From Mucilaginibacter sp. dw_454 (GTDB lineage Bacteria > Bacteroidota > Bacteroidia > Sphingobacteriales > Sphingobacteriaceae), in the NCBI RefSeq assembly GCF_018449775.1, contig NZ_JAAVVB010000003.1:310001-374000 (forward strand): DNA of 64,000 nt, given 5' to 3'. The translations under genes were made by a program, and so were the position numbers. This document shows, one piece after another, positions 41,471 through 60,385 of this stretch. Below the pieces are notes generated by a model, which did not search any database, had not been told where the DNA came from, and saw only the letters and a program-made list of their open reading frames with translations. The stretch's first letter is position 1. Each line of letters opens with the position of its first letter.

Positions 41471-42928
41471 TCAATCAAATTTTACATTGCTGTAGTTTGA
41501 TTTGATGGTGATCACTTTGTCGGCGCTGCCTTTACCTACGTGACCTTTATAGTTTTTGGTTGAGGTGTAGCCTCTTTCGTTGTCGGGCGTTTTGCTGGTG
41601 ACGTTGGTCGAGTTGTCGTATAAAAAGTCGCCATAATGTGTGGTGACATCAAAGTCTGCATTGGTATCGCCCACGGTCATTAATTTTACCGGCGCATAGG
41701 TTGAGTTTACATCTAAGGTTTTTAAACCTTTACCCAGGTTGTTGATCACCAGACCATCGCCATATTTGATAGTGATAGTGCCCGATGAAGTAAGCTTACC
41801 AATTTTTACCGGACTATAGCTTGCTGTAGCGTTCAGGTTATCAGCCTGGTCTAAAGCCAAACTACCGTAAGATACGTTTACCTGGCTGCCAGTAACGCTG
41901 CCGATGTTGGCATCGCCATATTTAACAACAATTACATTGTCTGTATTAGTTAATGCTTTAGCCACCAGGCCGCCATAGCTGGTCTTAATATTTAGTTTAC
42001 CATCCAGGTCGGGCAGGTTTACTGCGCCATAGCGGTTGTTTACCGTAAGTGCAGCTTTTGCAGGCATGTAAATAGTATAGTTGATAATTACTTTGCGCAC
42101 TTTGGTTATTTTGCCGTTTTGCGTCATGGTGCCCCACCAACTGTTTTGACCTTGATTGATATCTGTTTTAAAGGCTACCAGGTTGTTGTCTTTACTGCTG
42201 TTGATGGTAGTTTGATCCAGTAATTTCTGCGCATCGCCATCCTCGTTAGCGTAAGCTTTGATATCAACGTCAACCTTAACCTCTTTCTTAGCCCAGGTAT
42301 TGACAGTGATCTTACCGTAGTTGTTGTCGACCTGAATAGCATCGTTGCCGTCTAAAGAATAACTTTTGCTAAAGGTTTTGCTTTTCTCTTTAACGTCGCC
42401 ACTTTGAATTTGCTTTTGAAAATTAGCATCGGCTTCGGCATTGTTAAAATGAAAGTAGTTACCACTAAAGCTACGGTTAAAGTTCCTGCTCATCAGTGAG
42501 TCAAAGCGCATGCCGTTGGCTTTGCGCATTACCAGCATTTTTTGCTGAAACAGTTCAGAATTTTTCTTGCGCTCATCGGCGTTTAATTCTGACATTTGTC
42601 TGTTCAGGTCGTGCATTTGCTCCTGTAGTTTCTGCATTTTTTTGCGATAGACGCTGTCTTTAGGATTAATCATATAAACTTCAGATCCACCATAGTTATA
42701 TAATGGTGCCACGGCATAGGTTTGCGAACCCGAAAGCCCTGCAATTTGATCATAAGTACCAGGCGTGTAAACATACACGCTTTGTGCCGGTGCTACAGCC
42801 GGTGTTGCCGGGGTAGCCTGTACAGGCGGCGTTGCTGGTACCGGTGCAACGGTTTGTGCATTTGCAGCGCTAAAAGTCACCAGACTTATCAGGGCTGTTA
42901 ACGCTATATTATATACTCTTGATTTCAT
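41471..42928 (-). CDS. DUF4097-like exported protein with coiled-coil N-terminus, ECF module 1
   Basis: Exported protein of 485 residues. The start MKSRVYNIAL opens a signal peptide ending SAANAQ; a further ATG upstream would start inside the preceding gene. Next comes a proline/alanine-rich stretch, then a charged helical region (KKMQKLQEQMHDLNRQMSELNADERKKN). The second half is repetitive strand-rich sequence (NNRYGAVNLPDLDGKLNIK, SYGGLVAKAL, VVKYGDANIGSVTGSQVNV, IKYGDGLVINNL), as in the DUF4097/putative auto-transporter-like beta-helix. It overlaps the anti-sigma gene by 20 bases, so it is part of the sigma-led operon. Function unknown; a surface or periplasmic structural role is a guess. 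Confidence 0.8.
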   Translation of the reverse strand: MKSRVYNIALTALISLVTFSAANAQTVAPVPATPPVQATPATPAVAPAQSVYVYTPGTYDQIAGLSGSQTYAVAPLYNYGGSEVYMINPKDSVYRKKMQKLQEQMHDLNRQMSELNADERKKNSELFQQKMLVMRKANGMRFDSLMSRNFNRSFSGNYFHFNNAEADANFQKQIQSGDVKEKSKTFSKSYSLDGNDAIQVDNNYGKITVNTWAKKEVKVDVDIKAYANEDGDAQKLLDQTTINSSKDNNLVAFKTDINQGQNSWWGTMTQNGKITKVRKVIINYTIYMPAKAALTVNNRYGAVNLPDLDGKLNIKTSYGGLVAKALTNTDNVIVVKYGDANIGSVTGSQVNVSYGSLALDQADNLNATASYSPVKIGKLTSSGTITIKYGDGLVINNLGKGLKTLDVNSTYAPVKLMTVGDTNADFDVTTHYGDFLYDNSTNVTSKTPDNERGYTSTKNYKGHVGKGSADKVITIKSNYSNVKFD

Positions 42929-43466
42929 TTTTTTGTTGATTTTTAAATTCATTAAACTGTTCAATAACATTTAGTTGTTGGTTCAGTACCTCTGTTTGTA
43001 CCTGCAAATTCCGGATCATTGCACGTAAAACAGCCTCCTGATTGGGGCTTGTTAATAAGTCTTTATTTAATTTATGGTAGGTAGAATCCATTTTGGTAAT
43101 CTCGGCAGTAAACTCGCTGTATAAAGCCGGATCTGTTTTGGCCAAACTTTTTAGCTCATTACGCTTACTGGCAATCAGTGATGTGTATTGTACTTGCTGG
43201 CGGGCATATTCAGGATTGATTGCCGCCAGACTAACGGTGGCCGGTTGTTTATGTGTGTAATAAAAGAAACAGGCCCCCATTACCATAATTACTGTAGCGG
43301 CAACCCGCAAAACAAAACCTAAAGAGAAGGTTTTAGCTTCCTTTTTTTTCTCGATGAACTCCTCGGGTAATTCGGCTTCTATGCGGCCCCAAAGGTTTGC
43401 CCTGGGTTCCAGATCGCTAAATTCTTCGCGGTTGTTTTTAATAAAATCTTCTAATTGCTTGCTCAT
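42909..43466 (-). CDS. Anti-sigma-factor-like membrane protein, ECF module 1
   Basis: Protein of 185 residues. A short cytosolic N-terminus (SKQLEDFIKNNREEFSDLEPRANLWGRIEAELPEEF) is followed by one membrane helix (about 50-69, VLRVAATVIMVMGACFFYYT) and an extracytoplasmic helical domain (MDSTYHKLNKDLLTSP, QEAVLRAMIRNLQVQTEVL). No zinc-binding HxxxCxxC is present. The layout and the 4-base ATGA overlap with the sigma gene upstream suggest an anti-sigma factor or sensor of this module. The resemblance in layout to the membrane partners of the other two sigma genes here supports that. Confidence 0.7.
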   Translation of the reverse strand: MSKQLEDFIKNNREEFSDLEPRANLWGRIEAELPEEFIEKKKEAKTFSLGFVLRVAATVIMVMGACFFYYTHKQPATVSLAAINPEYARQQVQYTSLIASKRNELKSLAKTDPALYSEFTAEITKMDSTYHKLNKDLLTSPNQEAVLRAMIRNLQVQTEVLNQQLNVIEQFNEFKNQQKNEIKSI

Positions 43467-44050
43467 TGTGTTATTCCCTTTCTGCTTAAAATCTCGCTCA
43501 ACTTTCTTTTTGCTCTTAAAAATTGTGTTCGTGATGTATTCTCTGTAATATTTAATATCTGCCCAATCTCTTCATGATCATACCCCTCAATTAAATAAAG
43601 CGATATCACTTGTTTATATCCCTCAGGCAACTCATTCATTGCCTCTTTTATTTGTGCTACTTTATATTGCGTTTCCTCGTCATCAAATGCTTCTTCGTCG
43701 GCCAGATTGTCAACATCGTCGCCCAGTTCAACCAACTCTACTTTGCGTTTGCGCAGCAGGTTTATAGAACGGCTTACCACAATTTGCTTGAGCCATAAAC
43801 CAAATGTGGTTTCCTGCCTGAAATCGTGGATGCGTTTAAAAGCATCTAAGAAAGACTCCTGTAAAACATCTTCGGCTTCGGCAATATTGCCCACTATCCT
43901 AAAGGCGACGTTTAACATCGCTTTAGCGTAGTGTTTATACAACTCATAGCAGGCTTTTTTACTGCCCTGTTTGCATTCCACCACTAAATTGTAGTGTTTG
44001 TCGATAAATAAGGTCTCCAAGTTTCTTACAGCTTTCGAGTTATAGGACAA
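43463..44050 (-). CDS. ECF RNA polymerase sigma factor, module 1
   Basis: Sigma-70 family ECF factor of 195 residues, directing RNA polymerase to a small regulon. Region 2 shows CYELYKHYAKAMLNVAFRIVGNIAEAEDVLQESFLDAFKRI, with the SINLLRKRKVELVEL end of region 2.4. Region 4 shows LPEGYKQVISLYLIEGYDHEEIGQILNITENTSRTQFLRAKRKL. An acidic linker (DDVDNLADEEAFDDEET) lies between. It heads an operon with an anti-sigma-like gene and a DUF4097 gene, with overlapping stops and starts. Its promoter target is unknown. Another in-frame ATG (ETLFIDKHYN) lies about a dozen residues in. Confidence 0.93.
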   Translation of the reverse strand: MSYNSKAVRNLETLFIDKHYNLVVECKQGSKKACYELYKHYAKAMLNVAFRIVGNIAEAEDVLQESFLDAFKRIHDFRQETTFGLWLKQIVVSRSINLLRKRKVELVELGDDVDNLADEEAFDDEETQYKVAQIKEAMNELPEGYKQVISLYLIEGYDHEEIGQILNITENTSRTQFLRAKRKLSEILSRKGITQ

Positions 44051-44203
44051 CGTTATTTTTGGGATGTTGCACGCAATTGAATTTTTTATGAAATAAATAT
44101 GAATTTAAGGGATTTGGGTGGGAATAGGGGAGCCGTGTTGATATTCTTAACGCCTAGTAGTGTAGCAATCTCAAAGTCGCTTTGTTAGCTTGTCGCTTGG
44201 TGA

Positions 44204-44616
44204 CGCTCAATTGCCGCTAAGGCTGTGTCTTTTGTCTTGATACAAAAGGCACCAAAAAATCAAGCCAGCAAAAACCTTCCCCCCACAGGCCAGACTCCCA
44301 GGCCCGGTTTGCTGACAGGCCATTGCGCTTTTTTTGAATCTACAAAATGTGCAGATTCTGCAATAGAAGCAAAACGTCAGACGCAGAGCTTCAGGCGAAA
44401 GCGGGTAAAACAATGGTGGCCTTGTGCGGCTGCAGGGCTGTTGGGAATGTGCCTGAAGCGTCGGCCAAGTGCGACAACAGGCGGCACAGGCCCCTGCCCA
44501 GGTTTTACCCGATTTGCAGCGCAAAGGCCTTGAGCGCAAAGAAGCCTTGTGTATGACTTGATTTTTGGTTCTTTTCATCAAGGAAAAGAACAAAGCCAAC
44601 CCGCGGCGATTGAGCG
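44204..44616. mobile_element. Putative MITE-like element with imperfect terminal inverted repeats
   Basis: A 413-base intergenic block whose ends are imperfect inverted repeats about 60 bases long. The left end (CGCTCAATTGCCGCTAAGGC then GTCTTTTGTCTTGATACAAA and CACCAAAAAATCAAG) matches the reverse complement of the right end (CTTGATTTTTGGTTCTTTTC, ATCAAGGAAAAGAACAAAGC, CGGCGATTGAGCG). The interior is GC-rich compared with its flanks. Only overlapping ORFs lacking any protein signature occur in it. No transposase is present, and target-site duplications were not clear. The flanking stretches 44051-44203 and 44617-44665 hold no recognised feature. Confidence 0.6.
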
Positions 44617-44665
44617 GGCCGATCTATACAGTATGGATAAACTTAGTGGCATGCAATAAGATTGC

Positions 44666-45202
44666 TTATACAACGTCACGTTCTTTCAAAAACTCATCTA
44701 TCACCTTAACAGCACGCTCATACCGCTCCTCACCAGCGCCATTAATAACTACATAATTAGCGTCCAACGCCTTCAACTCATCATGCCATACCTGCATAAA
44801 ATGCTCGCGCATATTTGGGAAATCGCGTAGGGGATCATCCTGCCAGGGCAGGTCAATGTTTAATAGTAAATAGAGGTCGTATTTGTGATTTGGTAGTTCG
44901 TCCAATACCACTTGCGGCGTTTTACCAAATATCTCATCGCTCCATATTTTTACAGTGATGAAGGTAGTGTCGCAAATCAGGATTTGGTTGGCTTGCGGCA
45001 GGATTTCTTTTTCCAACGCAACCTGTCCGTAAAACATATTGATCTCGTCTTGCCAGGTAGGGGGTTCGGTCAGCTTCTCGCAATAGCCACGGGCATACTC
45101 GGGCACCCATACCGTATTATAATGCTTAGCCAGGAAGGCAGACATGGTTGATTTGCCGGTAGACTCAGGCCCTACAATAGCAATTTTTACCGGGTTATTC
45201 AT
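44666..45202 (-). CDS. NadR-like nicotinamide riboside kinase / AAA-type ATPase
   Basis: P-loop kinase of 178 residues. The Walker A loop GPESTGKS (11-18) directly follows the first strand. The segment WVPEYARGYCEK is typical of NadR-type ribosylnicotinamide kinases, which phosphorylate nicotinamide riboside to NMN. It continues with ILICDTTFITVKIWSDEIFG and YDLYLLLNIDLPWQDDPLRD. It lacks the adenylyltransferase domain found in enterobacterial NadR. It lies 13 bases downstream of pnuC on the same strand, which supports this role. Thiamine or pyridoxal kinase functions are less likely. Confidence 0.85.
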   Translation of the reverse strand: MNNPVKIAIVGPESTGKSTMSAFLAKHYNTVWVPEYARGYCEKLTEPPTWQDEINMFYGQVALEKEILPQANQILICDTTFITVKIWSDEIFGKTPQVVLDELPNHKYDLYLLLNIDLPWQDDPLRDFPNMREHFMQVWHDELKALDANYVVINGAGEERYERAVKVIDEFLKERDVV

Positions 45203-45215
45203 GGTGTTAATATTT

Positions 45216-45824
45216 TCAAGAGGTCCTGCTTTTTAGATCAAGCTTTTTATACCAATCCATATAGCCCATTAGCGCTATGGGGATATAAATGGCATACATG
45301 AAGGCGGTGGCATCTAAACCCTTTACAATATATATGCCCACATAAATAGTATCTACAAAAACCCAGATCAGCCAGTTCTCTACCACTTTGCGTGCCAGCA
45401 ACACTTGCGCCACTAGGCTACAGGCTGCACAAAAACTGTCTATATAGGGGAAAGAAGCTGTAGTATATCTTAATACCGAGCCTAAAAATAATGTAAACAC
45501 TACCGTAGCAATCAATGAAATCCAGACCTCTTTTTTTGTTATGAGTTTTACCGGGGTTCTGTCTGCCGATGCCGGGGCCTTGCTCCAAAAATACCAACCG
45601 TAAATGTTCACCACCAGGAAATACACTTGCAGGCCCATGTCGGCAAAAAGATTTTTCTCGTAAAAAATAAAAATGTAGATAGTTACGCTGATGATAGCAA
45701 ACGGCCAGTTCCAAATGATGTTTTTGGCGGCCAGGTACACGCAAAGTAAACCGGTTATTACGCCAACTATCTCCCAAAGAGATTGTTGCTGCCACCAAAT
45801 TTGCAGATCGTGTATAAATGTCAT
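45216..45824 (-). CDS. pnuC: Nicotinamide riboside/mononucleotide transporter PnuC
   Basis: Inner-membrane transporter with about seven helices, 202 residues, bringing nicotinamide riboside into the cell. The family pattern is seen in WEIVGVITGLLCVYLAAKNIIWNWPFAIIS and YIFIFYEKNLFADMGLQVYFLVVNIYGWYFWS. VFVDTIYVGIYIVKGLDATAFMYAIYI includes the conserved substrate-site residues of this family. It precedes the kinase gene by 13 bases, so transport and trapping by phosphorylation are linked. The -7 box abuts the ATG, so the mRNA may be leaderless. No riboswitch was seen in the upstream region. Confidence 0.93.
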   Translation of the reverse strand: MTFIHDLQIWWQQQSLWEIVGVITGLLCVYLAAKNIIWNWPFAIISVTIYIFIFYEKNLFADMGLQVYFLVVNIYGWYFWSKAPASADRTPVKLITKKEVWISLIATVVFTLFLGSVLRYTTASFPYIDSFCAACSLVAQVLLARKVVENWLIWVFVDTIYVGIYIVKGLDATAFMYAIYIPIALMGYMDWYKKLDLKSRTS

Positions 45825-45828
45825 TTGT

Positions 45829-45836
45829 CAAATATA
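45829..45836 (-). promoter_or_regulatory. -7 box of pnuC, leaderless
   Basis: On the minus strand this reads TATATTTG, ending 4 bases before the ATG of pnuC, predicting a leader of zero or one base. The rest of 45837-46080 is AT-rich without a gene. Confidence 0.5.
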
Positions 45837-46090
45837 AAAAAATAGCCGGTTTTGCCGTGGCCAGTGCTCCTGCTGAAAAGTGGCCTTAATGTGCTTAGAA
45901 ACGATAAATGAATAAAAATTCATTTAATTTTCATTTAAGGCAAATAAAAATAGGTTTTGTTATATAAAAACCCCTAAATTTATGCCTAAGATTTAAACAG
46001 GTATCGCCGGGAACACTTTTGTTGTGCGGTTAGCGGGAAGTGCGGAATAAGATGCCACAATTTAATTGTTAATTTTTTTTGTGAAAAAAG

Positions 46091-46120
46091 AAAGCCGTTC
46101 CTTCATAGGGGAACGGCTTT
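46091..46120 (-). terminator. Terminator after the efflux operon
   Basis: AAAGCCGTTCC pairs with GGAACGGCTTT around an eight-base loop. The minus strand then runs into a T-rich tract. It lies just past the stop of the emrB-like gene (46126) and is its only obvious terminator. The preceding 45837-46090 holds nothing recognisable. Confidence 0.85.
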
Positions 46121-46125
46121 TGTTT

Positions 46126-47673: not shown

Positions 47674-47723
47674 TTTTTGTTAGTATTATTTAATTAGTCA
47701 GGAGCCTGAACCCCCGGCTAAAT

Positions 47724-48782
47724 TTAGTTTTCAGTATTTACAGATACGTTAACACTCATACCCGGACGCAGTTTATCTAAAACGTCTTTTGAAGCGTTGA
47801 TCTTAATTTTGATGGGGATACGTTGTACTACTTTTACAAAGTTACCTGTAGCATTGTCCGGAGGTAATAATGAGAATTTAGCGCCGGTTGCAGGGGCAAA
47901 GTTGTATACCGTACCTTCAACTTTCATATCAGGATAACCATCAACCTCAATGTCAACTTTTAAACCGTTTTTGATTTTCTCTAATTGGGTTTCTTTAAAG
48001 TTAGCAGTGATGAACAAGCTGTTATCATTAACAATAGAGAATAAAGTTTGTCCGGCTTGTACCAATTGACCCAATTGCACATTCTTTTTAGATGCCACGC
48101 CACTTGCAGGGGCTTTAACATCTGTATAGCTTAATTGCAGTTTAGCATAGTCAACATCAACCTGGCGTTGGCTAACACCTGTATGGGTAACTTTTAACTG
48201 GTCGCGGGTGGTACCAATTTGTTGTACCGCTGCTTTGTATTGATCTTTAGCTGCAGCCAAATTAGCGTTTGCTACGTCAAGGTCAGATTTAGCCTGATCA
48301 AATTGTTGTTGGGTAATAGAACCATCTTTTACCAGGTTGGCAAAACGGGCATAATCTTTAGCAACTTTGTCTAAACGTGCCTGTGCCGATACTACACCTG
48401 CTTTAGCCACTGCAGAGTTTGATGCAGTAGTAAAGATCTGCGACTCGCCTACGCCTACGCCGGCACTTGCGCCAACTTGAGCAGATTGAGCTTGTTCTAA
48501 TTTTACCTGGTAATCGCGAGGGTCAATTTTAACTAATATCTGGTCTTTGTTAACATGCATGTTTTCTTCAAAGTAAATGCTGTCAACGTATCCGCCAACG
48601 CGTGCTACTACCGGGCTTATATCGCCGTCAACCTGAGCGTCATCAGTATCAACGTGCTTGCCGTAGTATATATATTCTTTTACACCAAAGATTGCACCAC
48701 CTATAAGTATAAGGCCTAATATAATAGGAAGTACTCTGTTGGGTTTCTTTGCTGGTGTTTCGTGTGTGTCTTGCTTTGCCAT
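47724..48782 (-). CDS. emrA: Membrane fusion protein (EmrA/HlyD-like)
   Basis: Periplasmic adaptor of a tripartite pump, 352 residues. One membrane helix sits near residues 17-36 (VLPIILGLILIGGAIFGVKEY). Next comes the biotinyl-lipoyl-like start DTDDAQVDGDISPVVARVGGYV, and a coiled-coil hairpin between about residues 90 and 210. The second lipoyl half is YTDVKAPASGVASKKNVQLGQLV, and beta-barrel segments run to VSVNTEN. It lies between the TolC-like and permease genes with short spacers. The identification as EmrA-type rests on its pairing with a DHA2 permease. Confidence 0.93.
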   Translation of the reverse strand: MAKQDTHETPAKKPNRVLPIILGLILIGGAIFGVKEYIYYGKHVDTDDAQVDGDISPVVARVGGYVDSIYFEENMHVNKDQILVKIDPRDYQVKLEQAQSAQVGASAGVGVGESQIFTTASNSAVAKAGVVSAQARLDKVAKDYARFANLVKDGSITQQQFDQAKSDLDVANANLAAAKDQYKAAVQQIGTTRDQLKVTHTGVSQRQVDVDYAKLQLSYTDVKAPASGVASKKNVQLGQLVQAGQTLFSIVNDNSLFITANFKETQLEKIKNGLKVDIEVDGYPDMKVEGTVYNFAPATGAKFSLLPPDNATGNFVKVVQRIPIKIKINASKDVLDKLRPGMSVNVSVNTEN

Positions 48783-48804
48783 TTTATTGAGTGTTGTTGT
48801 TATA

Positions 48805-50163: not shown

Positions 50164-50168
50164 AGTTC

Positions 50169-51130: not shown

Positions 51131-51208
51131 GAAGTGGTATAATGAATCCTCACCAAAAAATTACGATTGTATAACCTAAACCTATATTTTGTACTATCAA
51201 TCTTTTAA

Positions 51209-51216: not shown

Positions 51217-51219
51217 GCT

Positions 51220-53694
51220 ATGAACCGTTTCATTCTATTTGCCGCCATTTTATTGACAACCGGCCACGCTTTTTCGCAAACCGCCCCGCCGGCCGACCTG
51301 GTAACTATTCAACAGAGCTTAAATAAATTAAATGTACTGGGCAGTGTGCTTTACGTGGCCGCGCACCCCGACGATGAAAATACCCGCCTGCTGGCTTACC
51401 TGGCGCAAGAAAAGCATTACCGCACCGGTTACTTGTCGCTTACCCGCGGCGATGGTGGCCAAAACCTGATAGGCAATGAGCAAGGCGAGGTGTTAGGTTT
51501 AATACGCACCCAAGAACTATTAGCGGCCCGCAGAGTTGATGGCGCTGAGCAGTTTTTTAGTCGCGCCAATGATTTCGGCTTTTCAAAAGGACCGGGCGAG
51601 ACTTTAAAGATCTGGGATCATGAAAAAGTATTGGGCGATGCCGTGTGGGTGATCCGTAAGTTCAGGCCGGATGTGATTATCTGCCGTTTCCCAACTACAG
51701 GCGAGGGCGGCCATGGGCATCATACTTCATCGGCCATTATAGCGCAGGAAGCATTTGCTGCTGCGGCCGACCCGAAACGTTTCCCCGAGCAATTAAAATA
51801 TGTACAAACCTGGCAAGCGAAACGACTGTTGTGGAATACCTTCAGTTTCGGTACCGTGAATACCACGGCCAACAACCAGTTTAAAATTGACGTAGGCGTT
51901 TATAACCCGATTTTAGGTAAAGGTTACGGCGAGATGGCTGCCGACAGCCGATCGAACCATAAAACACAGGGCTTTGGTACACCTAAGGTACGCGGAGCCG
52001 GTTTAGAGTATTTTAAAACGATCCTGGGCGATGCACCTAAAGACAGCCTGCTGTCGGGCGTTAACACCACCTGGACCCGTGTTGCGGGCGGCGAGTCAAT
52101 AGCCGAGCAGATCAACTTCATCAAAAAGAATTTCGACAGCCAAAACCCGCAAAATTCGGTTCCGGCCTTAATTGATGTATTGAACCGGGTTGCTGCGATT
52201 AAAGATACCTACTGGCGCGATCAAAAATCAAAAGAATTAAGGGACCTGATTACTGGTTGTGCGGGATTATGGTTTGAATCGTACGCCATGGAGCCGGTTT
52301 ATGCGGTTGGCGATAGCATCGGCATTGTTTCTCAGATCTATACGCCTTATAAACTGGCTATCCCTGGCTTCGAGATCAGGTCGACCCCAAAATACTCCAA
52401 CATTTATGAGGATAGGTTAGGCTCGGCCTTTAAGCCCGGTGTATTGTTGCGTGATACATTGACCGGCGCAGGCAAAATAGCAGCTAAGTTGTCGCAGCCT
52501 TATTGGCTGGCCGCTCCGCATAATTTAGGCACCTATACCTTGCCTAACGATACGCTGGCGGGTAATCCGGAAAATACTGATTACCCGCGTACCTGGTTCT
52601 CTTTTGCCATGGGCGGTAAAAAGGTGACCTATGAGCGTAAACTGATGTATAAATATGTTGACCCTGCCAAAGGCGAGATCTATGCACCAGTGGTAGTTGC
52701 CCCGCCGGTTACAACTAATATCCTGAGTAAAGATTACATTTTTAGCTCGGCGCAGCCGCAAACCGTACAGGTAAAACTGCAAAGCTTTACCAAAGCCAGC
52801 GGCAGCATTAGCCTGAAAGCGCCGTCGGGCTGGAAGATCAGTCCTGAAAGCATAGACTTTACTAATAAAGCCAAAGGAGCCGAGTGGGTAGAGACATTTA
52901 CCATAACGCCAACCGGCAGCAACCCGCGTACAGATATTTTAAAAGCAGTGGTTACAACACACGGTAAAGAATGGTCTATGGGTATACAGCGAATCAATTA
53001 TGATCACATCCCGGCCATTACTTTGTTCCCACCGGCCGAAGCGAAGCTGATCAACATCGACCTAAAAACTGCGGGCAAAAAGATTGGCTACCTGGCCGGT
53101 GCCGGCGATTTGGTGCCTGAAGCGCTAACGCAAGTGGGGTATGAGGTGCACCAATTAACAGAGAACGATATCATGAATACCGATCTGTCAATTTACGATG
53201 CGATAGTTGTTGGTGTGCGTGCTTATAATATTAACCCACGTTTGGTAGTTGAGCAGCCAAAGCTGCTGCAATACATTAATAATGGTGGCAATATGGTAGT
53301 ACAATATAATGTATACGCGCCGCTGGTGCTGAATCAGGTTGGCCCGTATCCGTTTAAAATAACCAATGATAGGGTGACTGATGAGAATGCCAAAGTTACT
53401 TTCTTGGAGCCGCAAAACCCGGTGCTAAACTACCCAAACAAAATTACAGATGCCGATTTTGACGGCTGGATCCAGGAGCGCGGATTGTACTTTACCAGTA
53501 GCGTTGACAATCACTATTCAAAAATACTGAGCATGGGCGATCCGGGAGAAGGGCAAAACCCAGGCTCATTGATCGTAGCCGATTATGGCAAGGGCCGCTT
53601 TGTTTATACCTCGCTTGATTTCTTCCGCGAATTGCCTGCGGGTGTGCCTGGGGCGTATAGATTGTTTGTGAATTTATTGAGTAAGCCGCAGTAA
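51220..53694 (+). CDS. Secreted PIG-L family deacetylase with large C-terminal extension
   Basis: Exported protein of 824 residues; signal peptide MNRFILFAAILLTTGHAFSQ. The N-terminal LmbE/PIG-L domain (about 40-230) removes acetyl groups from N-acetylated sugars in known members. It has the zinc motif AHPDDE (48-53) and the second metal motif GHGHH (164-168). The middle (about 240-500) has beta domains with no named match. The C-terminal 230 residues (IGYLAGAGDLVPEALTQVGYEVHQL, IVVGVRAYNIN, YINNGGNMVVQYN) resemble a ThuA/glutamine-amidotransferase-like fold. The start at the first ATG is clear and a terminator follows. Substrate unknown. Bacillithiol biosynthesis BshB is unlikely given the secretion signal. 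Confidence 0.87.
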   Translation: MNRFILFAAILLTTGHAFSQTAPPADLVTIQQSLNKLNVLGSVLYVAAHPDDENTRLLAYLAQEKHYRTGYLSLTRGDGGQNLIGNEQGEVLGLIRTQELLAARRVDGAEQFFSRANDFGFSKGPGETLKIWDHEKVLGDAVWVIRKFRPDVIICRFPTTGEGGHGHHTSSAIIAQEAFAAAADPKRFPEQLKYVQTWQAKRLLWNTFSFGTVNTTANNQFKIDVGVYNPILGKGYGEMAADSRSNHKTQGFGTPKVRGAGLEYFKTILGDAPKDSLLSGVNTTWTRVAGGESIAEQINFIKKNFDSQNPQNSVPALIDVLNRVAAIKDTYWRDQKSKELRDLITGCAGLWFESYAMEPVYAVGDSIGIVSQIYTPYKLAIPGFEIRSTPKYSNIYEDRLGSAFKPGVLLRDTLTGAGKIAAKLSQPYWLAAPHNLGTYTLPNDTLAGNPENTDYPRTWFSFAMGGKKVTYERKLMYKYVDPAKGEIYAPVVVAPPVTTNILSKDYIFSSAQPQTVQVKLQSFTKASGSISLKAPSGWKISPESIDFTNKAKGAEWVETFTITPTGSNPRTDILKAVVTTHGKEWSMGIQRINYDHIPAITLFPPAEAKLINIDLKTAGKKIGYLAGAGDLVPEALTQVGYEVHQLTENDIMNTDLSIYDAIVVGVRAYNINPRLVVEQPKLLQYINNGGNMVVQYNVYAPLVLNQVGPYPFKITNDRVTDENAKVTFLEPQNPVLNYPNKITDADFDGWIQERGLYFTSSVDNHYSKILSMGDPGEGQNPGSLIVADYGKGRFVYTSLDFFRELPAGVPGAYRLFVNLLSKPQ

Positions 53695-53735
53695 ATGTGC
53701 AGATATGCAGATGTGCGAATGTGCAGATGATTATA

Positions 53736-53769
53736 AATAAGAAATGCCGATTAATCGGCATTTCTTATT
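53736..53769. terminator. Bidirectional terminator
   Basis: AATAAGAAATGCCGAT (53736-53751) pairs with ATCGGCATTTCTTATT (53754-53769) with a two-base loop, between convergent PIG-L and DUF4097 genes. The preceding 40 bases repeat GTGCAGAT-like units. Confidence 0.9.
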
Positions 53770-53783
53770 ATATGTAAATCTTG

Positions 53784-54500
53784 TTATGGTTTCCTCAAAT
53801 AGATCTTTCCATAATCCGAACTAAGTACGCAGGCAGATTTATTATTTCCCGCATCCGCAGTAATAGAATTAAAGAAGTCACGTTTTTCGTGTGCGGTAAT
53901 CTTCATGTCCAGGTTTGACAATATTTCGCCAAAACGCGTTGTTGCCTTCAAGGTGCCCGTATGAGCAGTATTGATAGTAGCATCAACACCGCCATAAGTA
54001 TCATCTACTGTAATAGGGGCGTTAAAGTTGGCTATCTCTACCATACCATAAGTGGCTTTAATATTGGTTGCGCAACCTGCGGGTACCTTAATTTCAACAA
54101 CCGCGTCAATATTGGCGCCTTCGTTAGACTGTGTTACGCCAGGTAGCTTCTGAGCATCCTTGTATTCTTGTTTAGTTTTATAAAACGTTTTTACACCATT
54201 ACGTGTAATTGAATATTGGCGCGGTATTTTATCGAAATTGGTATGGTTGCTAATGGTTACAACACCATTTAACTCCTGTTCTTCCAGGCTGAAGTAATCA
54301 TTTTTTTCGGCATCATTTAAATCAATTTTAGCAACAACAGATATCTCGTTTTTATCCCAGGTACTTATTTTTACGGTCGGATAATCGAACTTAAAATTAA
54401 TTGGCTCGCCGGCTTTAACCGGGTAAGAGCGGGTGATGGTACTTTGTGCCTGCGCGCCAAAAGCCAGGGCGCAGCAAATGCATACGAAAAGATTTTTCAT
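53784..54500 (-). CDS. DUF4097-like exported protein A, ECF module 2
   Basis: Exported protein of 238 residues with signal peptide MKNLFVCICCALAFGAQAQ; the start is the natural one, as the in-frame ATG further upstream is inside the neighbouring gene. The strand-rich middle and end (FDYPTVKISTWDKNEISVVAKI, IKVPAGCATNIKATYGMVEIANF, ATTRFGEILSN, VLSSDYGKIYLRKP) match the DUF4097 beta-helix style. Its last residues SSDYGKIYLRKP closely resemble those of the adjacent paralogue (TSEYGKIYLRTGK). It follows that gene by 31 bases in the same direction, so it belongs to the operon led by the sigma gene at 56721. Confidence 0.78.
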   Translation of the reverse strand: MKNLFVCICCALAFGAQAQSTITRSYPVKAGEPINFKFDYPTVKISTWDKNEISVVAKIDLNDAEKNDYFSLEEQELNGVVTISNHTNFDKIPRQYSITRNGVKTFYKTKQEYKDAQKLPGVTQSNEGANIDAVVEIKVPAGCATNIKATYGMVEIANFNAPITVDDTYGGVDATINTAHTGTLKATTRFGEILSNLDMKITAHEKRDFFNSITADAGNNKSACVLSSDYGKIYLRKP

Positions 54501-54531
54501 GTCAATTTTTTTTAAGGATGTCTGTTTTTGA

Positions 54532-55299
54532 TTATTTGCCGGTACGCAGGTAGATCTTTCCGTACTCAGAGGTGAGCTTAAAATCTGTGCCACCGCCATT
54601 GATCTTTCCGTTAACCAGCTTACCATAGCTAATCATATTATCGGCTTTGTTTTTCTCAATCACTATTTTCAAATCTGCCGATGCCAAAATCTCGCCGAAT
54701 GAAGTGCTCAATTTAACATCTGCTTTAGTTTCTGTAGGCACAGTTACGTCTACAGCGCCATAAGTCGAAGCAATTGAAACAGGGCCTTTGATAATGCCGT
54801 TAAATTTAGCTTTAACTTCACCATACAGTGCTCTAACGGTCATCGGGCCGGTTACGTTGTCAAGCACTACCTCATTATAATCAGCAGACACTTCAATCTC
54901 ATTCGTCATATTTTTGAATTCGATTTTACCAGCATCTGCAACCACATGGCATGCCGAAGAAACGATTATATTTTTGGGAACCATTATTTTAAGGCCGGCC
55001 GAATTACCTACCGGGTGTACCTCGAGGTTGTTGCCGTTTTCCGTAACGCTGATACCAAGTCCGGTATTGTCTGTATAACCGTCGCCGCTTATGGCGCGCA
55101 GGCCTTTAGCGCGCGGGTCTTTTTCTTTTTCTTTTAAGGCTGATTTAAAAACAACTTCGTTGCCATCGTAACCTTCAACAGTAACTTCGGCCACGTCGAG
55201 CGTAATTTTGCCGCCAGATTTGGCAACTTTATATTCCTGGGCGCTGGCCAAGCCAAACATCGAAAGCCCAAGTAGTGTAGTAATGATATATTTTTTCAT
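54532..55299 (-). CDS. DUF4097-like exported protein B, ECF module 2
   Basis: Exported protein of 255 residues with signal peptide MKKYIITTLLGLSMFGLASAQ. The remainder is repetitive beta structure (LDVAEVTVEGYDGNEVVFKSA, EIEVSADYNEVVLDNVTGP, VRALYGEVKAKFNG, VSIASTYGAVDV, LSTSFGEILAS, DFKLTSEYGKIYLRTGK), with turns in the pattern YG(E/A/K)V. It lies immediately before paralogue A and after the anti-sigma-like gene, 92 bases away. Function unknown. Three such proteins in this window are tied to ECF modules, which suggests envelope-stress responsive envelope structures. Confidence 0.78.
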   Translation of the reverse strand: MKKYIITTLLGLSMFGLASAQEYKVAKSGGKITLDVAEVTVEGYDGNEVVFKSALKEKEKDPRAKGLRAISGDGYTDNTGLGISVTENGNNLEVHPVGNSAGLKIMVPKNIIVSSACHVVADAGKIEFKNMTNEIEVSADYNEVVLDNVTGPMTVRALYGEVKAKFNGIIKGPVSIASTYGAVDVTVPTETKADVKLSTSFGEILASADLKIVIEKNKADNMISYGKLVNGKINGGGTDFKLTSEYGKIYLRTGK

Positions 55300-55391
55300 T
55301 TTCTTTTTAAATTAATTTGTTGGTGATTTAACTATTTGCATTCGCTTAGCTTTCCGTCATGCATGAACCGATGGGCTTAGCGTTCGCTTTT

Positions 55392-56183
55392 TTATGATGA
55401 TTGCAATTGATTGATGCCCGAGTAGGCACAATCTCTTACAGGTTTTTGTGTATTTTGATCGTTTACTAATTGTTCCAATTGTTCTAATATGCCTGATGTT
55501 CTCATCCTGATCAATAAATTGATCATAGCTATTTGCACCACAGGGTCATGCTGCTGATTTAGCGCGTTGGTTAACTGTTTTCTTACATAAGTCTCCTGGT
55601 AAAATTTGGCTAAGCCATCCAATGCGGCTAACCTTACATTACTGTTAGGATCATTATTCAGCGTTTTTACCAGCGCATCAATTACATAATTATCCTTTTG
55701 GCCAATTTTTTCGGTAGATACTGCGGCCAAACGGCTGGCCGGCGATTCCATATTATTCAGGCTGGCATACATTACATGCTGTTGATTAACCGGGTGATGT
55801 TCTTTTAATTTAGCGACAAATACCTGTTTGCGTACATTCAAGTCATTGTCTACCGAGTCGATACTTTTTTGAGCCGGTTTGTTTGCGGCTATTACTTTAG
55901 TAGCTGTATCGGGTTGCATAATAGGTGGTTGTAACTTAACAACAGCAACACTATTTTCCGGTTGATGACGCAAGGTTAAAAAAGCAACCGCACCTACAAT
56001 TACCAGCGCACAAGCCGCCGCGGCCCAGCGTAACACCCGGAACGGAATAACTATGCCCGCAGGCTTTTCCTTCTGCTCGGGCTGCATTTCTTCGAGGATC
56101 CGGCCCAGCACAAAGGGGGGCGGCGTTTTGTCGTCAAACCCATCGCGGTTTTTTGCTATAAACTTTTCTAAATCATCATTCAT
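55392..56183 (-). CDS. Anti-sigma-like membrane protein with HEAT-like repeats, ECF module 2
   Basis: Protein of 263 residues. A cytosolic start (NDDLEKFIAKNRDGFDDKTPPPFVLGRILEEM) parallels the anti-sigma-like protein of module 1. One membrane helix follows at about residues 52-70 (WAAAACALVIVGAVAFLTL). The extracytoplasmic region has HEAT-like helical pairs (VIDALVKTLNNDPNSNVRLAALDGLAKF, LTNALNQQHDPVVQIAMINLLIRM, LEQLVNDQNTQKPVRDCAYSGI). It overlaps the sigma gene start region by eight bases. The role as anti-sigma factor or signal sensor is inferred from position and topology. Confidence 0.72.
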   Translation of the reverse strand: MNDDLEKFIAKNRDGFDDKTPPPFVLGRILEEMQPEQKEKPAGIVIPFRVLRWAAAACALVIVGAVAFLTLRHQPENSVAVVKLQPPIMQPDTATKVIAANKPAQKSIDSVDNDLNVRKQVFVAKLKEHHPVNQQHVMYASLNNMESPASRLAAVSTEKIGQKDNYVIDALVKTLNNDPNSNVRLAALDGLAKFYQETYVRKQLTNALNQQHDPVVQIAMINLLIRMRTSGILEQLEQLVNDQNTQKPVRDCAYSGINQLQSS

Positions 56184-56721
56184 GATAACTGCCTTGTTTA
56201 AGGGTTTGTAATATTCTATGTTTTGCCCGGTGGTATTGGGTCCTTACAGTTCCGTTTTCCAAACCAAGCAGCTCCGCAATTTGTGTATGCGGTATTTCTT
56301 CAATAGCATACAGGTTAAAAATTGTGCGGTAACCTTCCGGCAAGGCATCAATAGCTGCATTTACGGCATCCATATTATAAGCGAATGCATCTTCATCTAT
56401 CAGATCCTCGTCTTCCCGATCGGGCATCCATTCTGTCTCCAGTTCCACAAACCGCAGCTTTCTTTTTCTCACCAGGTCTATAGATTTATTGATGGCTATC
56501 CGTTTAACCCATGACCTGAAACCACTACTCTCTTTTAAACTGGCTATGCTCTTAAATGCAGCCACAAAACTATCCTGCAAAATATCTTCAGCCTCGCCGG
56601 TATGATTCACCAATCTCAATATCGAACTATAAACCGTTTTAGCGTGCAGGTTGTACAGGCCGGTATAAGCCGCCGGGTCACCTTGTTTGCACCTGGTTAT
56701 AAGTTCTTCTTGTTTAATCAT
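56176..56721 (-). CDS. ECF RNA polymerase sigma factor, module 2
   Basis: ECF sigma factor of 181 residues. Region 2: AAYTGLYNLHAKTVYSSILRLVNHTGEAEDILQDSFVAAFKSI, then RSWVKRIAINKSIDLVRKRK. Region 4: LPEGYRTIFNLYAIEEIPHTQIAELLGLENGTVRTQYHRAKHRIL. An acidic linker with DREDEDLIDEDAFAYNMD is close to that of module 1. It heads an operon of anti-sigma-like gene plus two DUF4097 genes, mirroring module 1. The upstream 333 bases carry a family D repeat and no other gene. Confidence 0.93.
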   Translation of the reverse strand: MIKQEELITRCKQGDPAAYTGLYNLHAKTVYSSILRLVNHTGEAEDILQDSFVAAFKSIASLKESSGFRSWVKRIAINKSIDLVRKRKLRFVELETEWMPDREDEDLIDEDAFAYNMDAVNAAIDALPEGYRTIFNLYAIEEIPHTQIAELLGLENGTVRTQYHRAKHRILQTLKQGSYHE

Positions 56722-56874
56722 TCGTAAAAGCCGATCAGCTTAATATTATTGTTTAATTACTATCCTATCGTAAACAGTTGAATAATGTTACAGTAATTTG
56801 AGAAGTTTTTTTATTTTTTTGAGGATTATAGTTGGTGAAACTGAAAAAAGGGTGTCAGTATAATAAAATAAGCC

Positions 56875-56959
56875 TGTCATCTCGACGAGGAACGAGGAGA
56901 GATCTATACACGTGCAATCTAAGCATGTGTATAGATCTCTCCCTACGGTCGAGATGACA
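56875..56959. repeat. Inverted repeat, family D
   Basis: TGTCATCTCGACGAGGAACG at the left, CTCCCTACGGTCGAGATGACA at the right, with inner arms GAGAGATCTATACAC / GTGTATAGATCTCTC. About 85 bases, between sigma gene 2 and the symporter operon. The rest of 56722-57003 is featureless AT-rich sequence. Confidence 0.85.
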
Positions 56960-57003
56960 TCAAAGGAAATTTCAATATCCTATCCTTTTTTACTATCAAA
57001 CTA

Positions 57004-57034
57004 TTGCTACACATCATATAATAAATTACTTTTG
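57004..57034 (+). promoter_or_regulatory. Promoter of the symporter operon
   Basis: TTG (57004-57006), a 20-base spacer, and TACTTTTG (57027-57034) match both consensus parts. The ATG of the 63-aa gene is 21 bases beyond, so a leader of about 17 bases is expected. Confidence 0.6.
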
Positions 57035-57054
57035 CAGCACTACATAATAAGATC

Positions 57055-57246
57055 ATGAGCAAACATCACCCACAAACAGATAAAAGTTTAGATTACATTT
57101 ATTACCTGGTAGGTACATTAAGCGGCGCTTTTGTAGGCGTTGTTATTGATGTAGCTTTCAAATATGTTATCATAGGTGCTATTTTAGGATTTTTAACTGC
57201 GGCCTTCTTCGTCAATGTATTGGCTAAAAGCAGTGAAGAAGCCTGA
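57055..57246 (+). CDS. Small membrane protein, 63 aa, of the symporter operon
   Basis: Family not recognised. Two hydrophobic segments span about residues 14-30 (YIYYLVGTLSGAFVGVV) and 36-57 (FKYVIIGAILGFLTAAFFVNVL). Polar ends and a hydrophilic first dozen residues suggest a small inner-membrane helper. It begins 21 bases after a promoter box, and its 3' end overlaps the next small gene by 14 bases. The overlapping run into the SSF symporter supports a joint function. Confidence 0.7.
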   Translation: MSKHHPQTDKSLDYIYYLVGTLSGAFVGVVIDVAFKYVIIGAILGFLTAAFFVNVLAKSSEEA

Positions 57247-57358
57247 TCCTGAACTTCCTTCATTTATACGCAACTGGAACCAGTTTTACGGCATTGTAGC
57301 CGGGTGGCTGGTTTTTTTAATTATAATTTTCTGGCTCATTACCCTTTATCTTAAATGA
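57233..57358 (+). CDS. 41-codon small protein overlapping both neighbours
   Basis: A 41-residue reading frame starting at GTG (57233-57235) and ending TGA at 57356-57358. It begins VKKPDPELPSFIRNW; the middle is NQFYGIVAGWLVFLIIIFWL and the end ITLYLK, a single transmembrane helix. Its stop overlaps the ATG of the SSF symporter in an ATGA, and its start overlaps the preceding 63-aa gene. Short proteins of this kind (LPSFIxxWxQFY then one helix) directly before SSF genes are, to my memory, common in Bacteroidota. Too short to be sure by itself; the GTG start is inferred. It may be a small symporter subunit. Confidence 0.6.
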   Translation: MKKPDPELPSFIRNWNQFYGIVAGWLVFLIIIFWLITLYLK

Positions 57359-59052
57359 GCTTAACCGACTGGATCGTTCTTGGTACTACCATATTGCTCA
57401 TCATTAGCTATGGGCTCTGGAAAAGCGGTACCAATAAAAACATCGACCAGTTTTTGATGGGCAACCGCTCTTTATCCTGGTATCATATTGGTTTTTCGGT
57501 TATGGCTACGCAGGCCAGCGCCATTACTTTCCTTTCTGCACCCGGACAGGCTTATAGCGATGGGATGCGCTTTGTGCAGTTTTACTTCGGTTTGCCGCTG
57601 GCGATGATTGTTTTGTGTATCACTTTTGTGCCGATATTTCATCGCCTTAAAGTATATACTGCGTACGAGTTTTTAGAGCAGCGCTTTGACCTGAAGACCC
57701 GCGCGCTTACCTCCGGATTATTCCTGATCCAACGCGGGCTGTCAACCGGTATAGCTATTTATGCACCGGCTATTATCTTATCTATTATCCTGAATATTAA
57801 TACCACCTACACCACTATATTTATTGGGGGATTGGTGACATTTTACACCGTGCTGGGAGGCACCAAAGCGGTATCATATACCCAATTGCTGCAAATGAGT
57901 ATCATCTTTGTGGGTATGTTTGCTGCCGGGGCATTGGTGGTAGTATTGCTGCCGCACCACATCGGTTTTGCACATGCCCTAAAGCTGGCGGGTAAAATGG
58001 GCAAAATGAACGTCATCGACTGGAAATTTGACCCCTCAAGCAGGTACAACATCTGGAGCGGTATCATTGGCGGGTTTTTCCTGCAGTTATCTTACTTCGG
58101 CACAGACCAGAGCCAGGTTGGGCGATATTTAACCGGCAGCTCGGTAGGGCAGAGCCGCATGGGCCTCATCATGAATGGCCTGATCAAAATACCGATGCAA
58201 TTTTGTATCCTGCTGATAGGGATCCTGGTATTTGCATTCTACCAGTTTAACAAGCCGCCTATGTTCTTTAACCAATACGAGGTTAAGCAGGTCAAACAAA
58301 GCCAGTATGCCGGGAAATACAACGTGCTCGAGGGAAAATATGCCATGGCCTTTGAGCAGCGAAAAACTAAGGCTAATGAGTTGATGGCCGCGATTGATAG
58401 TCATGATCAAACGCAAATAGATAAGGCCCAGGCCAGCCTGAAACAAGCCGACGCTGCCACCACCGACATCCGCAGGCAAAGCATCGGCCTGATGAAAAAG
58501 AATAACCGGCAGGCCGATACCGATGATACTAATTATGTATTCCTGAATTTTGTTACACATTATTTGCCACGAGGGCTGATAGGTTTACTCATAGCCATTG
58601 TTTTCCTGGCGTCTATGGGCTCAACGGCCAGTGCTTTGAACTCTTTAGCGTCGACTTCGGTAGTTGATATTTATAAACGCACCATCAACCCCGGCGCGTC
58701 CGATAAAAATTATTTACTGGCATCCCGGCTGGCAACTGTTTTTTGGGGAATGGTCTGCATTGCCATGGCGCTTTACGCAGGCAAAATGGGGAATTTGTTA
58801 GAAGCCGTGAATCAATTAGGGTCATACATCTACGGCACTATTCTCGGCGTATTTGTAGTGGCTTTTTATGTAAAAAGGGTAGGTGGCAGCGCAGTATTTA
58901 TCGCGGCGTTATTGTCTGAAATTATAATCTGCATCATGGGCTATTATGGCGTGGTAGCTTATTTATGGCTAAACGCCATAGGTTGTTTCCTGGTGATCTT
59001 CTTGAGTTTATTGCTCAATCCAATAATGCACGAAAAGGCTAAAATCGCTTAA
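57355..59052 (+). CDS. Sodium:solute symporter (SSF family)
   Basis: Integral membrane cotransporter of 565 residues with roughly 13 helices, using a sodium gradient to take up a solute. Helix 1 is TDWIVLGTTILLIISYGLW, and the characteristic GFSVMATQASAITFLSAPGQAYSDGMRFVQFYFG gives the family pattern. It also has YFGTDQSQVGRYLTG and, near the end, VFLASMGSTASALNSLASTSVVDIYKR. An unusual hydrophilic loop rich in K, Q and A (about 325-385) interrupts the core. The substrate could be a sugar, amino acid or vitamin. The ATG overlaps the stop of the 41-codon gene. Confidence 0.93.
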   Translation: MSLTDWIVLGTTILLIISYGLWKSGTNKNIDQFLMGNRSLSWYHIGFSVMATQASAITFLSAPGQAYSDGMRFVQFYFGLPLAMIVLCITFVPIFHRLKVYTAYEFLEQRFDLKTRALTSGLFLIQRGLSTGIAIYAPAIILSIILNINTTYTTIFIGGLVTFYTVLGGTKAVSYTQLLQMSIIFVGMFAAGALVVVLLPHHIGFAHALKLAGKMGKMNVIDWKFDPSSRYNIWSGIIGGFFLQLSYFGTDQSQVGRYLTGSSVGQSRMGLIMNGLIKIPMQFCILLIGILVFAFYQFNKPPMFFNQYEVKQVKQSQYAGKYNVLEGKYAMAFEQRKTKANELMAAIDSHDQTQIDKAQASLKQADAATTDIRRQSIGLMKKNNRQADTDDTNYVFLNFVTHYLPRGLIGLLIAIVFLASMGSTASALNSLASTSVVDIYKRTINPGASDKNYLLASRLATVFWGMVCIAMALYAGKMGNLLEAVNQLGSYIYGTILGVFVVAFYVKRVGGSAVFIAALLSEIIICIMGYYGVVAYLWLNAIGCFLVIFLSLLLNPIMHEKAKIA

Positions 59053-59092
59053 ACGAACCAACCAGGATAGCTCAAAAGTATCAGAAAAAATA

Positions 59093-59124
59093 AATGCCCC
59101 TTCGAACTTGCTTCTTGGGGGCAT
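59093..59124 (+). terminator. Possible terminator of the symporter operon
   Basis: AATGCCCC pairs with GGGGCATT around a 16-base loop, without a convincing T run. It is 40 bases after the symporter stop. Further on are CTGGCA/TGCCAG near 59151-59166 and a 16-base palindrome ACTTTTTTAAAAAAGT at 59217-59232. Confidence 0.5.
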
Positions 59125-59306
59125 TCAACCTAAACCTTATCACAATTAAACTGGCAAGATTGCCAGCTTGTCATTATTAACGCAATTACTATACCAATAG
59201 TACCCGTTTTACTGATACTTTTTTAAAAAAGTGCTTTTATACTGAAGGCGGGTTGTGCATAGCTTAACTAATCGTCCTTTTTAGAAAGCAAATTGTACAA
59301 TTTAGC

Positions 59307-59804
59307 TTACGCTTGTTTATGCAATAGGCGTTTTCGCATAAATCCGTCTGCTAAAAACAACAACAGTACGGTATCAAAAAATAGAAATACTTTTAAAGTG
59401 CTGCCACTTAGCAAAGCCTTAAAGTTGGGCAGTGGTGTAGTATTTGATACCGCATGACTACCTGCCGACCAATGAATACTGCCCAAAGCCATACCCAGCA
59501 TTACGGTTAAACTAATAATAAAAAATCCGCCGATAGCCCACATCAGGCCTTTATTTACCCGGGTTTTGAGCGGCTTTTGAGTAGCGTACTCCGTACGGAT
59601 GGCCTCCATCACGTTATATGTAAAAGCCATATGTGGCTCGTCAAGCTCAACGCCCGCAGCCATTTCCTGGTTAAAGGTTAATAGCTCCTGGTATTTTTGG
59701 CGATAGCGCTCGTCGCCGGCAATTAGTTGCTCAATTGCAGTCTGCTCTTTAGCGGTGAGATTGCCGTCAATGTAGTCCCAAAGTTTTTCTTCCATGTTAC
59801 TCAT
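59307..59804 (-). CDS. Anti-sigma-like membrane protein, ECF module 3
   Basis: Protein of 165 residues. The cytosolic start MEEKLWDYIDGNLTAKEQTAIEQLIAGDERYRQKYQELL is the family's usual helix bundle. Two membrane helices (about residues 84-104 and 137-154) and a short linker follow. No zinc site (HxxxCxxC) is present. It shares ATGA with the sigma gene (four-base overlap) and lies after it on the same strand, the standard ECF/anti-sigma pair. Two near-adjacent ATGs exist; the first is taken. Confidence 0.78.
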   Translation of the reverse strand: MSNMEEKLWDYIDGNLTAKEQTAIEQLIAGDERYRQKYQELLTFNQEMAAGVELDEPHMAFTYNVMEAIRTEYATQKPLKTRVNKGLMWAIGGFFIISLTVMLGMALGSIHWSAGSHAVSNTTPLPNFKALLSGSTLKVFLFFDTVLLLFLADGFMRKRLLHKQA

Positions 59805-60385
59805 ATCAGTTCTTTAACTTCGTGTTTTAAATTACGCTCCAGTTTTTCTTTCAATCGCTGGCGCGCCCTAAATAATTTCACTTTTACACTGTTGGCTTCT
59901 ATGCCTAAGGTTTGCGCTATTTCTTCGAGAGATTGCTCGCCTTTGTAAAACAGGGTTATAATCGTCGCGTCATCGGCAGATAATTGCTCAATAGCCTGGT
60001 TAAGGTAAAACGACCTTGACTTGTTCTCGGCATTATTAACGTCATAGCCCGACGGCGTGTTTTCAATTTGTATGTGTGTATCCTCGTCATCTATCGACGC
60101 GGTATCTATTCTCTTTTTGCGCAGCGACGTCATGGCTGTGGTATATACTATAGTATATAGCCAGGTGCTAAATTTCGACTCCTTTTTAAATGAATCTAAC
60201 GAGCGGTAAGCTTTGATAAAACAATCCTGCGCTACTTCTTCTGCATCCTCACGGCTTTTAGTGAAGCGCATAGCCAGTGTAAACACAAAACGCTGGTGCC
60301 GTTTAACCAGGTCGGCATAAGCCGATTGGTTGCCCGCCATTGTTTTGGTGATCAGTTCTATATCTGAAAGCTTGCTCTGCATCAT
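59801..60385 (-). CDS. ECF RNA polymerase sigma factor, module 3
   Basis: ECF sigma factor of 194 residues (193 if the second of two adjacent ATGs is used). Region 2 reads YADLVKRHQRFVFTLAMRFTKSREDAEEVAQDCFIKAYRSL, followed by KFSTWLYTIVYTTAMTSLRKK. Region 4 reads SADDATIITLFYKGEQSLEEIAQTLGIEANSVKVKLFRARQRLKEKL. It is a different subgroup from modules 1 and 2, as the linker is short and lacks the acidic run. Pairs with the anti-sigma-like gene 59307-59804. The regulon is unknown. DUF6249 protein on the other strand may be related. Confidence 0.93.
   Translation of the reverse strand: MMQSKLSDIELITKTMAGNQSAYADLVKRHQRFVFTLAMRFTKSREDAEEVAQDCFIKAYRSLDSFKKESKFSTWLYTIVYTTAMTSLRKKRIDTASIDDEDTHIQIENTPSGYDVNNAENKSRSFYLNQAIEQLSADDATIITLFYKGEQSLEEIAQTLGIEANSVKVKLFRARQRLKEKLERNLKHEVKELI

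Follow-up and report, generated by a model that had tools for sequence, protein, structure and literature searches.

Are two look-alike sigma factor operons in one stretch of a bacterial genome copies of each other, or were they assembled from different sources? The question is raised by a 64,000-nucleotide stretch of Mucilaginibacter sp. dw_454 (the window; it lies on contig C13 of a genome of 4.7 Mb), in which three genes for extracytoplasmic function (ECF) sigma factors, each with a membrane partner gene, lie between positions 41471 and 60385. The initial annotation had explained the first two systems (modules 1 and 2) as a duplicated circuit with an exchanged sensor. We propose instead, with a probability of about 0.8, that modules 1 and 2 are self-contained envelope-sensing circuits, and that module 2 is a head of one operon family (type I, which includes module 1) joined to a body of another (type II). 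Gene content, operon order, class-specific promoter motifs, the mixed ancestry of module 2 and its empty site in relatives, each established computationally, carry this reading.

We recovered all three ECF sigma/anti-sigma pairs where they had been annotated (Table 1). The sigma, partner and output genes are all encoded on the minus strand, and the sigma genes overlap their partner genes by 4, 8 and 4 bases in modules 1, 2 and 3, respectively. The three sigma factors (181–195 amino acids) all consist of regions 2 and 4 with little besides, with Sigma70_r2 and Sigma70_r4_2 above the Pfam cut-offs, identifying them as ECF members of the sigma-70 family. Three start positions were corrected. Specifically, sigma-1 probably begins at a conserved TTG at about 44020 rather than at 44050, because the upstream start would run into the conserved promoter at 44046–44071; the start of T1, the output of module 1, was moved to about 42928 and that of TR-B, the second output of module 2, to 54500. 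As initially described, modules 1 and 2 are operons of one logic, encoding a sigma factor, a membrane anti-sigma factor and exported output of the Toastrack (DUF4097-like) kind. No FecR domain was matched in the partner proteins by Pfam at E values up to 1.

The same order extends beyond this genome, being kept across four locus classes that we defined by parsing gene order in fetched loci. Type I, to which module 1 belongs, consists of a sigma factor, a helical anti-sigma factor and one Toastrack (T1). In type IIa the sigma factor is followed by a HEAT anti-sigma factor, with a zinc motif in most cases, and two Toastracks; type IIb is similar, with the zinc motif missing in most and with outputs resembling TR-A and TR-B of module 2. 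Hybrid H loci (21, including module 2) combine a type I-like anti-sigma start with HEAT repeats and two Toastracks. Another sigma-HEAT-two-Toastrack module, of type IIa, is encoded outside the window on contig C16 (L023).

Within the genome, sigma-1 and sigma-2 are reciprocal best hits (37% identity) and sisters (support 91/75), and the N-termini of their partners are homologous. These relationships favor the duplication first suggested, in which only the sensor domain of the copy would have been replaced and the outputs would be paired copies. The sister relationship holds at the scale of this genome but not in a wide sigma tree of 124 rows, where the 21 hybrid sigma factors form one clade (100/100) nested within the type I lineage. 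The nearest neighbor of this clade is a type I locus of family f36 (L245; 100/99), and the 38 type II sigma factors form a separate clade (100/99). Thus, the split between sigma-1 and sigma-2 is far older than this genome. Forcing the hybrids together with the IIb sigma factors of Cyclobacteriaceae cost 142 log units and was rejected by the approximately unbiased (AU) test (p = 1e-9). The acidic linker noted in sigma-1 and sigma-2 is real but not particular to them, as it is found in the whole sigma clade (median net acidic 9–10 versus 5 elsewhere).

Anti-sigma-1 and anti-sigma-2 do share their N-terminal start (28% identity over residues 1–167, E = 4e-7; profile E = 8e-18), and their outer domains are unrelated, both as annotated. 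The domain is a predicted helical bundle in anti-sigma-1 versus HEAT repeats in anti-sigma-2 (HEAT_2, E = 9.6e-10, 39.1 bits against a cut-off of 27.7), a match found in all 18 of the 18 aligned hybrids. AlphaFold2 predicts N-terminal helices in anti-sigma-1 at residues 3–11, 13–16 and 23–32, with low confidence, before a transmembrane segment at 49–72. Matches of anti-sigma-1 to TssO, COG6_N and IcmG look like coiled-coil noise and were discarded. Over their first 46 residues, the hybrid anti-sigma factors resemble type I (profile E = 8e-18), and the profiles of type II and of a third class described below (type III) gave no match; the hybrid HEAT domain groups with Cyclobacteriaceae IIb (98/93). 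The hybrid outputs TR-A and TR-B also group with those of the Cyclobacteriaceae IIb operons (SH-aLRT 99 and 99; TR-B 98/99 in a careful tree), and the reading of the outputs of the two modules as paired copies was not supported. This split in ancestry, between sigma factor and anti-sigma domain (ASD) on one side and HEAT domain and Toastracks on the other, places the break inside anti-sigma-2, between the transmembrane segment and the start of the HEAT side, which alignment puts at about residue 125.

The site of module 2 is empty in relatives. In the nearest of them (G019) synteny is kept, with only 69 bp separating the flanking genes, for a PIG-L-type hydrolase and a symporter; in the window, 3.3 kb containing module 2 lie between these genes. 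Module 2 is likewise absent from this site in two other genomes (G003 and G001), one of which (G003) carries it on another contig, so that it looks like a movable cassette. Across the genus, module 2 is accessory, with full-length hybrids in 3 of 37 genomes, whereas module 1 is core: a type I anti-sigma factor is present in 36 of the 37, and the single miss is a genome that is 61% complete. From these sequence comparisons, module 2 looks like an old hybrid inserted as a ready-made 3.3-kb cassette, and module 1 like the core one. We therefore regard duplication with a swapped sensor as very improbable, given a sigma split that predates the family, outputs and a HEAT domain that belong with another operon family, and the absence of module 2 from the syntenic site of relatives, module 1 being core.

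As the trees indicate, the unit of exchange is split at the membrane, with the sigma factor and its binding domain in one part and the HEAT sensor and Toastracks in the other. A third head (type III), with its own sigma factor and N-terminal domain, is found on HEAT/Toastrack bodies at seven loci, two in Runella and the rest in families f15 and f67. The HEAT domains of two of these loci (L119 and L142) group with those of the type II-headed loci L130 and L132 (98/86). The occurrence of the hybrid and third heads on such bodies implies at least two head exchanges. Since the HEAT domain and both Toastracks were kept together through these exchanges, they may cooperate on the outer side of the membrane, possibly as a sensor and its ligand.

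Given these results, we suggest that the membrane anti-sigma factor would hold its cognate ECF sigma factor through the cytosolic N-terminal domain, and that a signal at the extracytoplasmic domain (the three-helix bundle in module 1, the HEAT repeats in module 2) would free it. Once free, the sigma factor would act on a promoter type of its own and mainly transcribe the operon that encodes it, and sigma factor, anti-sigma factor and exported Toastracks would rise together. The Toastracks would serve as output and perhaps double as a ligand for the sensor, which would create a periplasmic feedback loop. Module 2 would have originated from a type I cytoplasmic head (sigma factor and ASD) and a type II periplasmic body (HEAT domain and two Toastracks), brought in as one inserted cassette. 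We infer sigma release, autoregulation in vivo, Toastrack–HEAT contact and the signal. We tentatively extend this to a system whose two halves, a cytoplasmic head with its own type of promoter and a periplasmic body, are interchangeable and join at the membrane, and in which the HEAT sensor would directly read the secreted Toastracks of its own operon. If so, the sigma system would be measuring a product that it exports itself, and at least two head exchanges would fit such an arrangement.

Alternatively, the Toastracks may be plain effectors, for example stabilizing the envelope, that make no contact with the sensor, and their linkage to the HEAT domain may reflect a recombination point inside the anti-sigma gene. 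One crossover there carries everything downstream, and Toastracks elsewhere have been tied to membrane-stress protection (PMC11237479); we give this explanation close to an even chance. HEAT and two Toastracks remain paired, however, over Bacteroidota, Balneolota, Aminicenantes, KSB1 and Latescibacterota and under three heads, which suggests contact without proving it.

The assignment of the outputs to DUF4097 holds in part. TR-A itself exceeds the Pfam cut-off, and 12 of 17 aligned relatives match PF13349 at E = 0.01, but T1 and TR-B are recognized only via relatives and profiles. Neither gives a match of its own; 4 of 28 T1 orthologs and 2 of 16 TR-B orthologs do at the same threshold, and profiles link T1 to TR-B (E = 4e-17) and TR-A to TR-B (E = 1.6e-15). 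In the AlphaFold model of T1, the all-beta domain has a predicted local distance difference test score (pLDDT) mostly above 90. Searching PDB sequences with the T1 and anti-sigma-1 profiles gave weak matches only, most of them to helical proteins, designed ones included. Elsewhere on the contig, an exported protein of Toastrack type with repeated GSGD motifs (DUF4097, 52 bits) stands alone (L113:3066–3770; C13:437565), next to an M1-peptidase-like gene and without a sigma partner.

All three outputs begin with signal-peptide-like stretches. Where cleavage is expected, A20 and Q21 of TR-A and Q19 of TR-B do not vary. Toastracks of PSP/Lia systems are predicted to be intracellular (PMC11237479), and the outputs could by analogy be scaffolds beneath the membrane, as proposed for those systems and predicted for Toastracks fused to transmembrane domains (PMC11237479). 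The signal-peptide-like starts argue against an intracellular location for this branch, as do the invariant cleavage-site residues, and Pfam revealed no PspC or LiaI-LiaF-TM fusion. We consider such a scaffold role improbable.

Each class of locus has its own ECF-type promoter motif upstream of the sigma gene. We found the type I motif TGCAAC-N16..18-GTC at 27 of 32 loci (shuffled expectation 0.10), the H motif TG[TC]AACA-N15-CGA[TC] at 18 of 21, the IIa motif GTAACC-N15-[AG]GT[TC] at 21 of 27, the IIb motif GTAACCTT-N11..15-GGTA at 7 of 11 and the type III motif TGTAATG-N12..17-TCGTCT at 7 of 7; the motifs come from the very sequences in which they were counted, and close relatives raise the numbers, which thus measure conservation and are not an independent test. 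Shuffled expectations were 0.1 or less for all class motifs, no motif was found in any other class, and the spread of the motifs over families is independent of close relatives. That the outputs might be transcribed apart from the sigma genes, a possibility raised initially, found no support. The genes overlap or are close, one conserved ECF-type promoter precedes each sigma gene, and a search within the two operons revealed no minus-strand terminator. Both operons end in strong palindromes.

A pattern search of the whole genome placed the strict type I pattern at two sites, in front of the type I operon itself and immediately ahead of a different ECF sigma gene. The strict H pattern also occurs twice, at its own operon and inside a transposase-like open reading frame. 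Over 12 genus genomes there are 24 strict type I sites, versus 23 in the reversed control, and most genomes have one at their own operon. At strict stringency, this supports self-control and not a broad regulon. The second type I site (C16:114286–114311; L026, just upstream of 4377) lies before C16_113992. This ECF sigma gene is accompanied by a membrane partner gene of its own and, downstream, by a gene resembling those for outer-membrane receptors; the site may reflect cross-regulation or chance.

Several points weigh against the head-and-body reading. The AU test of hybrid TR-B joining T1 is borderline (p = 0.049), and in a quick TR-A tree the hybrids are not quite one clade, which makes the direction of body transfer less sure than the kinship. 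T1 and TR-B miss the Pfam cut-off. The proposed Toastrack–HEAT contact has joint inheritance as its basis, and looser promoter sites are not separable from chance, so a wider regulon may exist.

Type I anti-sigma factors are found in 74 of 396 genomes of the class. Outside the genus, hybrids occur in Pedobacter, Sediminibacterium, Flavihumibacter and other Chitinophagaceae, and type II loci reach beyond Bacteroidota into Aminicenantes, KSB1, Latescibacterota and Balneolota. In family f15, type I pairs were seen with no adjacent T1 gene (L109, L224, L226, L235, L242 and L250). Another genus genome (G024:C14) encodes a more distant sigma factor, an anti-sigma factor with weak HEAT similarity and two Toastracks (L105:3453–4858 and downstream). 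In a sister sigma clade (L019, L111, L112, L025, L020 and L031) the partners have a similar N-terminal motif and carry or adjoin proteins that resemble outer-membrane beta-barrels, so the use of the anti-sigma head may not be confined to Toastrack operons.

The grouping of three sigma genes was rejected as a feature in itself. With about 29 ECF genes in the genome (leaving out four RpoD-like factors and one factor of 406 residues), at least three fall inside 16.6 kb in about 12% of random layouts (P = 0.12 for 29 ECF genes). The sigma tree places sigma-3 as the sister of an unrelated sigma factor on contig C15 (C15_26595). Given this and the chance-level clustering, the triple is not a unit. 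Upstream of sigma-3 lies a perfect 35-nucleotide inverted pair (60483–60572) of the GTCATTGCGAGCGTAGCGTGGCAATC family, which resembles repetitive extragenic palindromic elements and has 248 half-sites in the genome (reversed control, 0). The right edge of the module-2 segment carries a similar palindrome (about 56874–56960).

Table 1. Features of the three sigma modules, in window coordinates (AF2, AlphaFold2; TM, transmembrane segment)
Feature	Position	Strand	Remarks
Module-1 operon terminator, likely	41414..41453	-	18-pair stem and T run
T1, exported Toastrack-like: signal peptide, helix, all-beta domain 180-485	41471..42928	-	AF2 pLDDT 80.6
Anti-sigma-1: cytosolic helical ASD, one TM (49-72), extracytoplasmic three-helix bundle	42909..43466	-	AF2 pLDDT 77.7
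Sigma-1, type I ECF sigma	43463..44020	-	start moved to conserved TTG; Sigma70_r2 1.1e-13, r4_2 3.6e-14
Module-1 putative autoregulatory ECF promoter, TGCAAC-N17-GTC	44046..44071	-	conserved upstream of type I sigmas
Module-2 cassette	53688..56984	.	absent from G019
Palindrome after TR-B, likely terminator	53736..53769	-	17-nt arms, 100% complementary
TR-B, exported Toastrack-like	53784..54500	-	profile match to TR-A; tree grouping with IIb TR-B
TR-A, exported Toastrack (DUF4097)	54532..55299	-	PF13349 25.4 bits, cut-off 22.9
Anti-sigma-2, chimera: type I ASD (about 1-46), TM, linker, type II HEAT domain (about 134-261)	55392..56183	-	
Sigma-2, hybrid-clade ECF sigma of type I descent	56176..56721	-	
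Module-2 putative autoregulatory ECF promoter, TGTAACAT-N14-CGAT	56767..56792	-	relaxed form conserved in hybrids
Anti-sigma-3, no Toastrack partner	59307..59804	-	weak zf-HC2 and anti-sigma profile matches
Sigma-3, unrelated ECF lineage, outside Toastrack system	59801..60385	-	sister to C15_26595

The separate histories of the sigma/ASD half and the sensor/output half mark a natural seam of an ECF switch and provide related heads, each tied to a promoter type of its own, for one kind of sensor. The operons also place secreted Toastracks in sigma circuits of Bacteroidota and other phyla, offer a testable role for this large family of poorly known function, and warn against taking look-alike neighboring operons for duplicates. 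Both ECF/anti-sigma pairs and Toastracks were known before. Our literature search, of incomplete coverage, found no description of sigma-HEAT-Toastrack operons, of head exchange, or of secreted Toastracks in sigma circuits of Bacteroidota or other phyla.

In Bacillus subtilis, SigW and SigX promoters have a common -35 element and are discriminated by the -10 element; here the -10 elements differ as GTC-type (type I) versus CGA-type (hybrid). The modules resemble the RpoE-RseA and SigW-RsiW systems (ECF with ASDI; PMC7406223) in having a two-domain ECF sigma factor, an overlapping gene for a single-pass anti-sigma factor, predicted N-terminal helices before the transmembrane segment and an own putative promoter with an AAC-type -35 element. 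Anti-sigma-1 may be ASDI-like: its gene adjoins an ECF sigma gene, and its N-terminal helices are predicted, with low confidence; unlike in ASDI (PMC7406223), in types I and H the N-terminal domain lacks the Hx3Cx2C zinc motif and any Pfam ASD match, and the sensors are a helical bundle or HEAT repeats. In the same survey, only 6% of Bacteroidetes ECFs adjoin an ASDI (PMC7406223). TR-A, and probably T1 and TR-B, belong to the same protein family as the PSP/Lia Toastracks (DUF4097/DUF2154/DUF2807), for which one context with an operonically linked sigma factor has been reported (PMC11237479). Unlike those, the outputs carry signal-peptide-like starts and not membrane-domain fusions, and Pfam matched no PspA, PspC, LiaI-LiaF-TM, HAAS/HAAS-PadR or two-component partner in the operon genes of the window. 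Finally, as in the synthetic orthogonal ECF sigma/anti-sigma sets (PMC3817407), sigma factor and anti-sigma domain appear to form an insulated control unit; unlike in those sets, the exchange seen here is natural, and its break falls within the anti-sigma gene, close to the membrane.

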